A DNA stretch of 64,000 nt, from NCBI RefSeq assembly GCF_900100765.1, contig NZ_FNFO01000008.1, forward strand, positions 248,001 through 312,000, given 5' to 3'. This DNA is from Catalinimonas alkaloidigena. GTDB taxonomy: Bacteria > Bacteroidota > Bacteroidia > Cytophagales > Flexibacteraceae. Positions 5,038 to 12,858 of this stretch are shown in pieces. A model generated the notes under the pieces. The model saw only the letters and a program-made list of their open reading frames with translations, was not told where the DNA came from and did no database searches. Within the stretch, counting starts at the first letter, position 1; each line of letters opens with the position of its first letter. Both the position numbers and the translations under genes were made by a program.

Positions 5038-5418
5038 TTAGTGCATCGCGCCATTGCAGTTGGGTGGGCAAAGCTTGCCCCCATTTTCCAGGGTCTCGTC
5101 CTGGTCGTTGTCGGTGTCGCCCTCACCCGTAGATTCCGTGGAAACCATAACCAGGGTGTGCTTCAGGTCCTCTTCGGCGGCGTAATAGAACCGCACGCCG
5201 GACAGGTTTTGAGTCATGGTGCCTTCCTGTTTCAATTGGGCCGCCGTTTTGGCGATGCCGAGCATTTTCAAAAGTTGATCGGCACTGAACCAGCACGCGC
5301 GAGCGTCCTGGAACGTAGGGTTTACTGCCCTGATGGTGGTTTGGTACGGCTGAAGACGCGCTTCCTGGTAGCGCTCGATCATTGCGATCAGATCTTCTGC
5401 TGTGGGATTGTCAGCCAT
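5038..5418 (-). CDS. Hypothetical protein, 126 residues
   Basis: This small soluble protein starts MADNPTAEDLIAMIERYQEAR and has a compact alpha/beta-looking body. It ends in an acidic tail (TGEGDTDNDQDETLENGG) followed by a short cysteine motif, CPPNCNG, right before the stop. There is no signal peptide or membrane segment. Codon use matches its neighbours. I do not recognise the family. It is transcribed divergently from the metalloprotease gene at 5747, with a structured 328-base spacer between the two. Confidence 0.65.
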   Translation of the reverse strand: MADNPTAEDLIAMIERYQEARLQPYQTTIRAVNPTFQDARACWFSADQLLKMLGIAKTAAQLKQEGTMTQNLSGVRFYYAAEEDLKHTLVMVSTESTGEGDTDNDQDETLENGGKLCPPNCNGAMH

Positions 5419-8977: not shown

Positions 8978-9178
8978 GCACGGACGATACGCCCACCCAC
9001 CCTGTCGATTCGACCGTTCTTACCGAATCTGTTTGCAGGACCCGCTTTAGCGCCGGTAAATTAGTTTATTGCGTAGCCTTGTTCGACCATTGTGTTGAGA
9101 ACCGCTACTTTACCATGTTGAAAAGATCAGATGAAACAGGCTGTTTTGCCGTCAACGCGCCTCCCGTATTTTCCTAGT

Positions 9179-10234
9179 ATGAAAACGTTAGCCCGCGAAC
9201 AGGTATATTGGATTTGTCAGATTGTCGGCTGGAGTGCCTACGGCTTAATCTCCCTCTTTATCTCCTACTTTGCGGCGTCTGGCGAAGAAGCGCCCGCGCT
9301 CCAGATCCAGGAAATACTTTCGAGCCTGATGGTCGTGATCCTGGGCATCGGGCACACCCACTTTTTCCGGCATTTGTTGAAACGCTGGGGCTGGACGCAA
9401 CTTTCGCTCGACCAGTTGATTGTCCGGGTTCTGATTGCCGACGTAGTCATGGCCGTTTCGCTCGTGTTCATCATGTTCATGATCGACCTCATTCTGGGGC
9501 TGGTGCCGCTGCCGCTCCGCAACATCGATCTGGGCAGCCTCCTGCTGTCGCTGCCGGGGTTCAGCCTGACGTTTTTCATGTGGTCGCTCATGTATTTTGC
9601 CATCACGTCGTTCCGGAACTACAAGCGCGAAGAAATTGAGCGCCTCAAGTGGGAACGCTCCATCAAAGACTTCGAGCTGAACAAGCTGAAGTCGCAGATG
9701 AACCCCCATTTTGTGTTCAACGCCCTCAACAGCATCCGCGCCCTGGTGGAAGAAGATCCGGAGAAGGCCAAATCGTCGATCACCCAACTGTCGAATATCC
9801 TGCGAAATTCACTGATTGCCGGCCGCAGCAAAACCATTTCGCTCGAAGAAGAAATGCGTACGGTGAACGATTACCTGTTGCTGGAAAAGTTGCGTTTCGA
9901 AGAACGGCTGGACGTCAACATTCACCTGGCCCCCGAAGCGCTGCAAATCCGCGTCCCCCCCATGATTGTGCAGACCCTGGCCGAAAATGCCGTGAAACAC
10001 GGGATCTCCAAAAAAACCGAGGGGGGCTTTATCGAAATTGCGGGCCACATGGAAAACAATTGCCTGCAACTGTCCATCCGGAACACCGGGGTGTTGAAGT
10101 CGCTTAACAGCGGAGGATTTGGTATTTTGAATACCAAACAGCGTCTGGAGCTTCTGTACGGCTCCGAAGACTACTTCACCATCACCCAGGAAAGCCCTGA
10201 TGTTGTCCACGTAAACTTAAAAATACCTTGCTGA
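9179..10234 (+). CDS. LytS/YehU-type sensor histidine kinase
   Basis: This 351-residue protein has four predicted membrane helices in the first 145 residues, then a coiled-coil linker and the His_kinase (PF06580) motif LKSQMNPHFVFNALNSIRALV, with phospho-accepting His177. A HATPase domain follows, with the N-box QTLAENAVKHGI and the GFGILNTKQRLELLYG segment. The start at 9179 is preferred over 9131 because the upstream residues are not hydrophobic-anchor-like. The stop codon overlaps the start of the LytTR regulator by one base (TGATG), so the two are translationally coupled and form a two-component system. Confidence 0.93.
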   Translation: MKTLAREQVYWICQIVGWSAYGLISLFISYFAASGEEAPALQIQEILSSLMVVILGIGHTHFFRHLLKRWGWTQLSLDQLIVRVLIADVVMAVSLVFIMFMIDLILGLVPLPLRNIDLGSLLLSLPGFSLTFFMWSLMYFAITSFRNYKREEIERLKWERSIKDFELNKLKSQMNPHFVFNALNSIRALVEEDPEKAKSSITQLSNILRNSLIAGRSKTISLEEEMRTVNDYLLLEKLRFEERLDVNIHLAPEALQIRVPPMIVQTLAENAVKHGISKKTEGGFIEIAGHMENNCLQLSIRNTGVLKSLNSGGFGILNTKQRLELLYGSEDYFTITQESPDVVHVNLKIPC

Positions 10235-10974
10235 TGAGAACTTTAATCGTCGACGACGAACGATTAGCACGAAACGAATTGCGTCGCCTGTTGCAGGCTT
10301 ACGACCAGATCGAAATTGTGGGGGAGGCGGTCAACGGAGAAGACGCGCTGGAAAAGATCAAAGAATTACGCCCCGAACTCCTGTTTCTGGACATTCAAAT
10401 GCCCGGTAAGAATGGCTTCGAGGTGCTGATGGAATTGAAAGAGAATGTACCGGAAGTCATTTTTACGACGGCCTACGACGAATACGCACTAAAAGCGTTC
10501 GAGTTCAATGCGCTGGACTACTTGTTGAAACCTATCGAACCGCAACGTCTCGATGCGGCCATTCAACGCCTGGAAGCCAACGAGCCCAACGAACGTCCGC
10601 TTACGCAGGGCTCTTCGGCAGAACCCGAACAAAAGATTCTGGGCGAATTCGATCAGGTATTTGTGAAGGACGGGGACAAATGCTGGTTTGTTACCCTGGG
10701 CAAAGTGCGCTTGTTTGAATCGATCGGCAACTACGTACGGCTTCACTTCGATCACCACAAGCCTCTGATTTTGCGGTCGCTCAACGCCCTGGACGAGCGG
10801 CTGGACTCTAACGTATTTTTCCGGGCCAACCGCAAACACATCATCAACCTGCGGATGATTGAAACCATTGAGCCTTATTTCAGTGGAGGACTGGTGGTGC
10901 GTCTGAAGGGCGGGGATCGGATCGAGATTTCGCGGCGTCAGGCCATTCGGTTTAAGGAACTGCTCAGCCTCTAA
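10234..10974 (+). CDS. LytTR-family response regulator
   Basis: This 246-residue protein has a CheY-like receiver (residues 1-118) with acidic residues Asp7 and Asp8, phospho-acceptor Asp53 in LLFLDIQMPG, the conserved TTAYDEYAL and the switch lysine in YLLKPI. A LytTR DNA-binding domain follows (about 140-246, with SIGNYVRLH and the FFRANRKHIINLRMI segment). It is partner of the LytS-type kinase encoded immediately upstream. The ATG at 10234 overlaps the kinase stop; a TTG two codons earlier is possible but unnecessary. Downstream lies the small-RNA cluster on the opposite strand. Confidence 0.95.
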   Translation: MRTLIVDDERLARNELRRLLQAYDQIEIVGEAVNGEDALEKIKELRPELLFLDIQMPGKNGFEVLMELKENVPEVIFTTAYDEYALKAFEFNALDYLLKPIEPQRLDAAIQRLEANEPNERPLTQGSSAEPEQKILGEFDQVFVKDGDKCWFVTLGKVRLFESIGNYVRLHFDHHKPLILRSLNALDERLDSNVFFRANRKHIINLRMIETIEPYFSGGLVVRLKGGDRIEISRRQAIRFKELLSL

Positions 10975-10988
10975 TCACGTAAGGGCAT

Positions 10989-11049
10989 AAAAAAAGACAG
11001 TCAGACCCACCACAATCTGACTGTCCAAACAACCTACTTTATACACCAA
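10989..11049 (-). repeat. Shared 3' module of the small-RNA units, copy in R3
   Basis: Read on the minus strand this copy is TTTGGTGTATAAAGTAGG, TTGTTTG, then a 10-bp hairpin GACAGTCAGA/TCTGACTGTC (11025-10996) enclosing the loop TTGTGGTGGG, then seven T. The same order occurs at 11599-11661 and 12022-12085. The loop core TTGTGGTGG is unchanged in all three copies while the stem differs by paired changes, as expected for a conserved RNA hairpin that also serves as an intrinsic terminator. Confidence 0.85.
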
Positions 11050-11150
11050 ATTAACCAAAAGCGGTAAAGAAAGGACTTGAACCTTTGTTGGCTGCCGGTT
11101 TCAGCTCCTTACCCAACAACGTGTGATTTTGGTCGCCGCGTTGTTTTGAT
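10989..11150 (-). ncRNA. Small-RNA unit R3 with 52-nt mini tRNA-like body
   Basis: A minus-strand unit of about 160 nt is predicted from a TATCTTTG -7 element at 11164-11157 to a terminator at 11025-10989. Within it, bases 11113-11062 fold like a tRNA without an anticodon arm. The acceptor stem is GGTAAGG/CTTTACC (7 bp, one G-U). The D-arm CTG/CAG has loop AAACCGG, with the conserved A and GG. The T-arm is AAAGG/CCTTT with canonical loop TTCAAGT, followed by an unpaired G. No CCA is encoded. After it come CTTTTGG and the module shared with R1 and R2. It is not a standard tRNA; the boundaries are inferred from promoter and terminator only. Confidence 0.55.
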
Positions 11151-11156
11151 GTATTG

Positions 11157-11164
11157 CAAAGATA
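11157..11164 (-). promoter_or_regulatory. Bacteroidota -7 element TATCTTTG for unit R3
   Basis: The minus-strand octamer TATCTTTG is an exact match to TAnnTTTG. A TTTA/TTTT stretch at the right distance upstream (11184-11188) could serve as a weak -33 element. Transcription would start near 11150. Confidence 0.5.
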
Positions 11165-11598
11165 GATGCGTCAGGCCGATTTTTAAAATAATTGAAATCT
11201 ACCCCCTTAATTTTTCAATTATTTTTATAGCTGTCCTATGTAGATTTAATTTTTTCTAAAGACAGCGCAAAATTGATAAGTCGGATTACCAATCTGACAA
11301 CGATTTCAACCAACGCAACCGCCTACGCGAATCTCCCTGATAATCAAGCACATTTGCATGTAGAGTTATCCAAATCCCTATGCCTAAACGCGCGATTTTC
11401 AATCAAAAATTTTGTATATCTACGATAGCTAATTAATCCGGTTGCTTGCGAAGCACTCCTACCGACGATTCTTCGGTCAAAGCGGCATTCACTACTTGTT
11501 CGCTGATCTGAAAGAGAAGAAGAGGAATGAGAAAAGAAAAATCTTAGGAGAATATCCTCTGCGATTGAGGTCCCTACCGTGGCATGTATAGTGGGTAC
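11165..11598. other. AT-rich spacer between small-RNA units R3 and R2
   Basis: No convincing gene is present in these 434 bases. A 93-residue minus-strand open frame runs from the R2 terminator hairpin to 11344, but its residue composition looks random and its start lies inside the hairpin. The DNA is much more AT-rich than the flanking coding regions and has no further repeat that I can see. Confidence 0.5.
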
Positions 11599-11661
11599 AA
11601 AAAAAAGACAGCCAGACCCCACCACAAGTCTGGCTGCTCAAACAACCTACTTATACACCAA
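11599..11661 (-). repeat. Shared 3' module of the small-RNA units, copy in R2
   Basis: This copy reads TTGGTGTATAAGTAGG on the minus strand (one A fewer than the others), then TTGTTTG, a 9-bp hairpin (11636-11609) and eight T. In the stem a C-G pair replaces the U-A pair of R3 at the same position, a compensatory change. Confidence 0.85.
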
Positions 11662-11708
11662 TTTATTTTTTTAGCTGTTCATGCCGAGTAGCCATTTGAC
11701 TAACACCG
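11599..11708 (-). ncRNA. Small-RNA unit R2, shared 3' module without a recognisable tRNA body
   Basis: A predicted minus-strand transcript of about 110 nt runs from a TATATTTG -7 element (11722-11715) to a terminator (11636-11599). The 5' half contains GGCTACTCGGCATGAACAGCT, in which ACAGCT echoes the end of the R1 tRNA-like body, but no acceptor stem or T-arm can be drawn. The 3' half is the shared module with hairpin CAGCCAGAC/GTCTGGCTG and loop TTGTGGTGG. It may be a paralogue that lost the tRNA-like part. Ends are inferred, not measured. Confidence 0.45.
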
Positions 11709-11714
11709 ACAATG

Positions 11715-11722
11715 CAAATATA
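11715..11722 (-). promoter_or_regulatory. Bacteroidota -7 element TATATTTG for unit R2
   Basis: The minus-strand octamer is an exact TAnnTTTG match. I do not see a clear -33 TTTG at the expected distance, so promoter strength is uncertain. Confidence 0.45.
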
Positions 11723-11800
11723 CGACCTATCTCGACATTATTGACATTTCCGCATTTTAAGAAGGAAAATATTCATAAAATTTATTTTTAGATCTTATTA

Positions 11801-12049
11801 TTAAAAATATGATACCCAATCGCTTGGTTTCATAACAAATATTAATAGATCTTCAAGAACCCAGTTTTGCATATTCGCATACCAGAATACACACTTCAAT
11901 TCATAACCATCAGAGGAACATTCGACTTTAGCTACCCTGCGCCCACAGGGAGTTGCTAACTTCACACCCGGAAATATGATGAGATCTGCTGGGAAGGAAA
12001 GTGGGCTAGAGTAGGTATAAACAAAAAAAAACAGCCAGATCCACCACAA
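11801..12049 (-). pseudogene. Possible remnant of a small protein gene between R1 and R2
   Basis: The minus-strand frame encodes a protein-like stretch (FPGVKLATPCGRRVAKVE, then ELKCVFWYANMQNWVLEDLL) with the feel of a small SH3-like or DUF2158-type domain. Its only upstream start-like codons lie inside the R1 terminator hairpin and the first 25 codons are junk-like. I read it as a gene that has lost its N-terminus or as chance. Base composition is AT-rich like the rest of this interval and unlike the neighbouring genes. Confidence 0.25.
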
Positions 12050-12085
12050 TCTGACTGTTCAAACAACCTACTTTATACACCAAAA
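12022..12085 (-). repeat. Shared 3' module of the small-RNA units, copy in R1
   Basis: On the minus strand it reads TTTTGGTGTATAAAGTAGG, TTGTTTG, hairpin AACAGTCAGA/TCTGGCTGTT (12059-12030) around TTGTGGTGGA, then about eight T. One stem position is a U-G pair, intermediate between the U-A of R3 and C-G of R2. Confidence 0.85.
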
Positions 12086-12258
12086 GCTGTAAGGGAAGGA
12101 TTCGAACCTCCACGGAGCGGTTAGCGTTGGCATTTCAGAAAGGAAGGTTCCTTGCTGAACCGCCAAAGTTTATCCCGAACTCTCCACCCCCGAGACAGGA
12201 GGGCATGTCTGCCAATTTCATCACCTTACAGTGTGAGCCGGACTATTTCCGACTTGAT
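12023..12258 (-). ncRNA. Small-RNA unit R1 with enlarged (144-nt) tRNA-like body
   Basis: A predicted minus-strand transcript of about 236 nt begins after a TACCTTTG -7 element (12272-12265). Bases 12230-12087 have tRNA hallmarks: a perfect 7-bp acceptor stem TGTAAGG/CCTTACA, a Leu-like D-arm with loop AAATTGGCAGA, a possible anticodon-type stem CCCTC/GGGGG with a 7-nt loop CTGTCTC, and a T-arm GGAGG/CCTTC with loop TTCGAAT. Between the anticodon-type stem and the T-arm sit about 75 nt instead of the usual 4-20. They contain a long hairpin (TTGGC...TTCAG/CTGAA...GCCAA). It could be a tRNA with a giant variable arm, a tRNA with an insertion, or a tRNA-derived sRNA. Confidence 0.55.
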
Positions 12259-12264
12259 TTATGA

Positions 12265-12272
12265 CAAAGGTA
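12265..12272 (-). promoter_or_regulatory. Bacteroidota promoter for unit R1 (TACCTTTG)
   Basis: TACCTTTG matches TAnnTTTG exactly. TTTC lies 19 bases upstream (12295-12292), one base off the -33 TTTG consensus. Transcription would start near 12258, pointing away from the AsnC-type gene at 12382. Confidence 0.55.
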
Positions 12273-12381
12273 AATACACCAGATTTATTTTGAAAATATT
12301 CAACAAAATTTCCTTAATTTTTTTATTATTTTTAATTTTGGCGAGCATAATTTAACAATCAACAAAACAACCTCAGCGCAA

Positions 12382-12858
12382 ATGGCCGCAAATTCAGAAA
12401 TTGACAATGTTGACCTGAAAATCCTGAAATTACTGATGGACAACGCCAATATTCCTTATACCGAAGTGGCAAAACGGGTCTTTGTTTCCGGGGGTACCGT
12501 ACACGTGCGGATGCGCAAAATGCAGGAATTAGGGGTAGTAACGGGATCGCAACTTAAAATTGATTATACCAAGCTCGGGTACGACATCAGCGCCTTCCTC
12601 GGCATCTACCTGGAAAAGAGTTCGATGTACGCGGAAGTGGCCGAGAAGCTGCGCGAGATTCCTGAGATTGTCAGCATGCACTATACCACCGGACTATATT
12701 CTATCTTTGCACGAATCATTTGCCGGGATACCATTCATCTCCGCAGTGTGCTGCACGACAAAATTCAACGCGTGCCTGGTATACAACGTACCGAAACGTT
12801 TATCTCGCTGGAGGAAACCCTCGAACGATCGGTGCGGCTGGACCAGGACCTGAAATAG
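12382..12858 (+). CDS. Lrp/AsnC-family transcriptional regulator
   Basis: This 158-residue protein has an N-terminal winged helix-turn-helix (about residues 8-62, with DLKILKLLMDNANIPYTEVA and the GTVHVRMRKMQELGVV wing). A RAM/AsnC ligand-binding alpha/beta domain follows (about 70-150). The length is typical of the family, whose members form octamers and respond to amino acids or related small molecules. It lies 146 bases upstream of sufB, but that gap holds a separate promoter and operator, so it is probably its own transcription unit. The effector cannot be read from sequence. Confidence 0.92.
   Translation: MAANSEIDNVDLKILKLLMDNANIPYTEVAKRVFVSGGTVHVRMRKMQELGVVTGSQLKIDYTKLGYDISAFLGIYLEKSSMYAEVAEKLREIPEIVSMHYTTGLYSIFARIICRDTIHLRSVLHDKIQRVPGIQRTETFISLEETLERSVRLDQDLK

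Follow-up and report, generated by a model that had tools for sequence, protein, structure and literature searches.

The window, a 64,000-nt stretch of the Catalinimonas alkaloidigena genome, carries three minus-strand units between positions 12272 and 10989 that look like real small-RNA genes, each running from a TAnnTTTG element through a variable 5′ part into the same 3′ module: the core GTAGGTTGTTTG, a hairpin and a T-run. On balance we favor the reading that the three are paralogous small-RNA genes derived from a tRNA-like ancestor, and that their tail is a base-pairing repressor of susC-type transporters, resembling the FopS sRNAs in action but not itself a FopS. What comparison between genomes shows is an old tRNA-like gene that gained tails at its 3′ end, the bodies then being lost while the tail was kept and multiplied.

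An earlier note on this DNA had placed a perfect TAnnTTTG element ahead of each unit, and all three are present, at 12265–12272, 11715–11722 and 11157–11164 for units 1, 2 and 3. Such a promoter-like element lies within 330 nt upstream of the linker in 12 of 13 units scanned (three from the window and ten from loci of relatives), the thirteenth, at L081, being cut by its contig end. TAnnTTTG shows no enrichment across the window (30 occurrences vs 24.2 expected; 10 of 100 shuffles reach 30), so the element alone proves little. The same note's shared 3′ module is real: three copies of GTAGGTTGTTTGNNCAG lie in the window, where 0.00 are expected, and each comes with a terminator-like hairpin. 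From genome copies of the pattern, the core maps to 12060–12071, 11639–11650 and 11026–11037 (minus strand), complementarity to susC marking it as a predicted seed in units 1 and 3. The hairpins, at 12029–12060, 11608–11637 and 10995–11026, account for three of the four terminator-like sites in 10900–12400.

Units 1 and 3 had both been credited with a tRNA-like body, and both carry one, complete in unit 1 and a remnant in unit 3. The unit 1 body (12086–12231, minus strand) is type II, scoring 147.5 bits with R2, our covariance model of the tRNA-like body, and is supported by covariation; it has acceptor, D, anticodon-position, variable and T arms. Alignment of bodies places the loop CTGTCTC at the anticodon position (12192–12198) and, together with covariation, an enlarged variable region with a structured insert at 12112–12186. 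The unit 3 remnant (11061–11114, minus strand) retains acceptor, D-arm-like and T-arm sequence and lacks the anticodon arm; it scores 21.5 bits with R2 and 21.8 bits with the Rfam tRNA model, below the latter's gathering score of 29 bits. The CTTTTGG flank said to be common to units 1 and 3 is indeed present in both, but the linker behind it differs: in unit 1 the flank joins TTGGTGTAT directly, while unit 3 keeps the longer TTTTGGTTAATTTGGTGTAT, as relatives do. Unit 2, described as lacking a body, contains no tRNA-like sequence upstream of its core. A histidine kinase (PF06580) and LytTR response regulator gene pair at 9131–10974 (plus strand) is convergent with unit 3.

On comparative grounds the unit 1 body is intact, not decayed, and belongs to a tRNA-Leu-related, type II tRNA-like RNA family. 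In an alignment of eight bodies made without a model, the fold is that of a type II tRNA, with 99.1% of cells paired and five pairs changed on both sides, a number reached by one of 500 shuffles. Over 59 R2 matches (57 distinct), 98.7% of cells are paired and 15 of 27 pairs are changed on both sides; shuffling gives 8.3 on average and in 500 trials never as many as 15, and slid versions give two to five. This larger alignment was fitted to R2 and leans towards structure, whereas the eight-body alignment was not fitted. At E up to 1e-5, R2 finds a match in 172 of the 194 genomes sampled from the order. Among ordinary tRNAs in six own loci the highest score is 57.9 bits (E 7e-16), so the weaker of these matches are probably tRNA-Leu; family members score 88–160 bits, and by hand count the best match has an E below 1e-20, well above ordinary tRNAs, in 138 of the 194. 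A sample of the whole phylum yields matches at E up to 1e-16 in 22 of 198 genomes, all of the same class (families of the window's own order, f23, f24 and f27), and the other 176 give no match at that threshold. Tandem copies of the body are common (L232, L236, L237 and L238; genomes G042, G094, G131 and G171), with up to eight matches per genome.

The closest to the body of nine tRNAs compared, a subset of the 40 tRNA matches in the window's genome, is Leu(gag), which shares 53 of 81 core positions with it. The body departs from tRNA-Leu in its loop (CTGTCTC and variants), in a discriminator G instead of A after the acceptor stem, and in the structured variable-arm insert, which in many members holds motifs such as GGGATAAAC, GGGTTGACCAC and GCTAAC; CCA is not encoded. 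Across the family the loop is mostly CTRTCYC (CURUCYC in RNA), with a pyrimidine usual at position 37; exceptions are a G at that position in L079 and L081 and the loop CTTTTCA in L083, and position 33 is not always U. Judged by the position-37 rule of decoding anticodon loops, it does not look like a decoding loop, and the body is apparently not for decoding. Roles considered for it are charging by LeuRS or SerRS, an idea that draws on the identity rules of these enzymes for the discriminator G73, an anticodon-nuclease decoy in phages, and a non-ribosomal aminoacyl donor.

We compared the body with known classes of RNA. A decoding tRNA with an ordinary anticodon loop was rejected: the type II fold is present, but ARAGORN makes no tRNA call in the window or the scanned family loci and the loop is unusual at positions 37 and 33 and in L083. 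tmRNA and the bacterial Y RNAs are stable mimics of tRNA that do not decode. The tmRNA search of ARAGORN finds none in the window or the family loci, and a Y RNA (YrlA), whose ends pair into a Ro-binding stem, does not fit a body whose ends form the ordinary acceptor stem of a cloverleaf. Rfam gives no match at gathering score in the window, and in eight family loci nothing at E 0.01 or below; a permissive search of 10950–12400 gives only the sub-threshold tRNA match at unit 3 and four chance-like matches. The statement in the earlier note that no described family has this layout stands in these searches, and an abstract-level look at the largely open-access literature found no RNA of such kind (tRNA-like, of Bacteroidota or Cytophagales, Lrp-linked, SusC-linked). 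The results point to an RNA family unreported by Rfam 15 and ARAGORN in the tested loci, although in 138 of the 194 genomes sampled from a single order its model scores above ordinary tRNAs.

A divergent gene for an Lrp/AsnC-family regulator (12382–12858, plus strand; PF01037, PF13412, PF13404) adjoins unit 1 and is a conserved neighbor: one lies within 1 kb upstream of the tRNA-like RNA in 22 of 39 loci and is absent in 17, in L081 because the contig ends. The same arrangement holds in every one of the 29 loci that carry the f10 tail described below, which are closely related to one another. From synteny, this neighbor hints at amino-acid control.

The body also occurs in phages. The 636-kb phage record LR756504.1 has a complete copy within a tRNA gene cluster (L259:1500–1644, R2 109 bits), with stems changed, the loop identical and insert motifs similar. 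A D-arm/anticodon-arm pattern found 20 IMG/VR contigs (L260–L279), all matching R2 at 96–129 bits; some copies lie close to a contig end, and in the two viral contigs with neighboring reading frames listed the RNA sits, by eye, among phage-type genes. A blastn search with the whole region returned one phage record and no plasmid, and a typed family-like sequence found nothing in phages and plasmids. The purpose of a conserved tRNA-like RNA that is apparently non-decoding and also phage-borne is a question these copies raise.

The tail has its own history. In the 7.1-Mb genome of the window GTAGGTTGTTTGNNCAG has six mismatch-free copies, three in the window and three on another contig (C5), with the core identical in all six. 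The C5 copies are short units in which TAnnTTTG is followed by a small hairpin replacing the body, the core and the terminator, and in five of the six copies the body is shrunken, missing or swapped for a plain hairpin. A covariance model built from the six (R1) recovers them and adds a single match in each of eight further genomes of f1, the family of the window's genome, and in an f19 genome, so that 10 of the order's 291 genomes are hit. R3, which models the linker and the terminator, matches at E up to 0.05 in 11 of 11 f1 genomes and leaves the f19 genome (G243) unmatched; the 27-bit match in G008 looks like a chance terminator, and the module was therefore counted in 10 of the 11. Weak second R3 matches in G003 and G006 also look like chance terminators and were not counted. 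In most of the f1 relatives found, the module is preceded by a tRNA-like body plainly homologous to that of unit 1. Their linker, TTTTTGGTTAATTTGGTGTATTAATAGGTAGTTT, is nearly invariant over more than 30 nt, with one base changed in one of eight aligned copies, and the module is kept in L085, L087, L096 and L318 despite degenerate bodies there.

Outside f1 this module is scarce. R1 at E up to 1 found none in tRNA-like loci of other families, apart from 20-bit matches in three viral contigs, and R3 gave weak matches only (L232, 28.9 bits; L257, 24.1; L244, 20.8; L234, 13.6). A core pattern with one mismatch, run over 58 other genomes, gave matches about as often, by eye, as its reversed control, and we therefore used the covariance model instead. 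The linker pattern found 27 stretches in genome contigs, nine of them f1 loci and the other 18 judged by eye to be chance, and two in viral contigs, of which L099 is not convincing and L098 is: there (5225–5300, minus strand, of a 93.7-kb viral contig; R3 43.5 bits) the f1 linker and terminator follow a reading frame immediately, and no tRNA-like body is present. A unit of the f19 genome (L058:1470–1545; R1 41 bits) is RNA-like and has the layout of the C5 copies, with a hairpin, GGTTGGTTGTTTT and a terminator.

A second family, f10, carries a different tail behind the tRNA-like body, the nearly invariant 31-nt TTTGGTTTTTAGTTTGTTGATGAAGTGTAAT. It occurs in 39 of 291 genomes (31 without mismatch), the reversed pattern in none; by hand count these are 37 of 45 f10 genomes plus G014 and G026, and the eight misses all belong to one genus. 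Examples from the pattern search are L230:1460–1490 (minus strand), L257:1799–1829 (plus strand) and L358–L387, and a tRNA-like body lies just upstream in 29 of the 30 loci fetched. Since f1 and f10 carry different, nearly invariant tails, we infer that tails are recurrent, family-specific additions under strong selection. The central proposal of the earlier note, tRNA-derived paralogous small-RNA units with a common 3′ module, holds as far as tested, and the recurrence of the layout in relatives, named there beforehand as support, is found across Cytophagales genomes with covariance models. As far as homology and complementarity tell, there is more than that note described: the body recurs order-wide, in part of the class as well as in phages, and the core is complementary to susC start regions.

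We tested those start regions because susC-type genes are targets of the Bacteroides FopS sRNAs, which repress them by base-pairing close to the start codon (PMC11697453). For each gene the target score was the best duplex energy over candidate starts from −45 to +15, with start codons picked by rule and energies that reflect duplex complementarity alone. Scored in this way, the core separates the 56 susC genes of the window's genome from 479 control ORFs (still including a few susC) with an AUC of 0.742 (p=1.5e-9); the reversed core gives 0.487, and none of 400 shuffled cores reaches 0.742 (maximum 0.685). When 12-nt windows are slid over unit 3 and one C5 RNA, susC complementarity peaks at the core. 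With one start per gene and susC taken out of the controls, 27 of 56 susC genes reach −10 kcal/mol or lower vs 21 of 232 secreted or membrane ORFs (odds ratio 9.4), and in five other windows of the same susC genes 6–13 of the 56 do; 29 susC genes miss this level and some unrelated control genes attain it. Of 41 sites at −9 or better, 27 are centered between −20 and 0 of the start codon. The core is predicted to be open in the three C5 RNAs (mean unpaired 0.67–0.80) and partly paired in units 1, 2 and 3 (0.51, 0.21 and 0.32).

A mechanism consistent with these matches would begin with transcription near TAnnTTTG; the tail would then either be cut from the body by tRNA-processing enzymes or stay joined to it, the body serving as a 5′ cap. 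The core GUAGGUUGUUUG would pair from about 20 nt before the start codon and over it on the mRNAs of many susC (TonB-dependent transporter) genes, and this pairing would keep them from being translated, in the manner of the Bacteroides FopS sRNAs.

The most serious alternative, which we nevertheless regard as unlikely, gives the working role to the tRNA-like body: the tail would help in making it, keeping it stable or binding it to proteins, and complementarity to susC would be chance or would mirror a motif shared by start regions in this genome. In keeping with this, the body by far exceeds the f1 tail in age and distribution, and the f1 linker is nearly invariant over a longer stretch than a seed requires. 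The susC results from other genomes, weak or negative, also lean this way: in f1 relatives, whose tail differs from that of the window, the AUC is at most 0.69 in a small sample (18 susC, 55 controls); the G243 sRNA resembling the C5 units has no match to the susC starts of that genome; and in one f10 genome (G277, 11 susC) the f10 tail gives no clear susC signal, the best windows (AUC up to 0.731) falling in the acceptor stem and terminator, outside the tail. Against it, the module persists and has multiplied without the body, and the susC signal is strongest at the invariant core, where it exceeds both the 400 shuffles and the other susC windows. The window's core applied to the 11 susC-like starts of an f10 genome gives an AUC of 0.54, so its complement is not a general susC start motif.

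It is improbable, in our judgment, that the tail instead acts by binding a protein, such as one of the RRM type, or by sponging sRNAs. Nearly invariant, G/U-rich linkers would suit such a role, and FopS sRNAs bind the RRM protein RbpB (PMC11697453); yet complementarity to susC at the start codon is not something this reading predicts. The two roles are compatible, and protein binding would not exclude repression by pairing. That the units are left over from att sites of integrated elements, or are tRNA genes in decay, an alternative the earlier note had raised, we consider very improbable: degenerate bodies in unit 3 and several relatives and the 20 IMG/VR contigs, some with the RNA close to a contig end, speak for it, but it is at odds with order-wide covariation over families, the invariant tails, the body-less copies, the place of the RNA among phage-type genes in the two viral contigs whose neighbors were read, and the conserved position beside the Lrp gene.

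Repression by pairing, the reading we favor, joins two known kinds of RNA, multicopy base-pairing sRNAs and regulatory tRNA trailers; their combination with a widespread, apparently non-decoding tRNA-like RNA did not turn up in the Rfam and literature searches above. Among trailers, 3′ETS-leuZ of E. coli is a regulatory tRNA 3′ external transcribed spacer that acts as a sponge of other sRNAs. The units are like it in placing a putative regulatory RNA just 3′ of a tRNA-like sequence, with the tail directly behind the body in unit 1, in f1 relatives and in 29 of the 30 f10 tail loci; they differ in that pairing to mRNA is predicted and in having free-standing copies without a tRNA-like part. With the FopS/GibS sRNAs they share multicopy paralogy, an exposed seed and a terminator, and phage or viral copies, a phage copy of FopS sequence being reported in the portions of PMC11697453 used here; targets in susC-type mRNAs near the start codon, predicted here from sequence complementarity, would be a further likeness. 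The FopS-type order of an exposed seed and then a terminator hairpin is found in the three C5 copies (hairpin, open core, terminator), while the core of units 2 and 3 is predicted to be largely paired. By eye, the 35-nt R1′ seed consensus of FopS does not contain the window's core, and no tRNA-like body is described for FopS in those portions (PMC11697453).

More tentatively, and with rather less confidence than we place in the repressor itself, we suggest that a class of tRNA-Leu-derived non-decoding RNAs, widespread in Bacteroidota, Lrp/AsnC-linked and phage-borne, may have been a launch platform for sRNAs. Distinct, nearly invariant tails would have grown on it in different families (TTTTTGGTTAATTTGGTGTATTAATAGGTAGTTT in f1, TTTGGTTTTTAGTTTGTTGATGAAGTGTAAT in f10), and in the window's genome the tail would have become independent, a multicopy silencer of sugar-uptake transporters, a birth of an sRNA that could be followed stepwise. 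The units offer a case in which the descent of a trans-acting sRNA from a tRNA-like gene can be traced, and they suggest that carbohydrate transporters are under a layer of RNA control outside Bacteroides. Both susC genes (56) and tails (six) are far more numerous in the window's genome than in its f1 relatives; expansion of target and regulator may go together.
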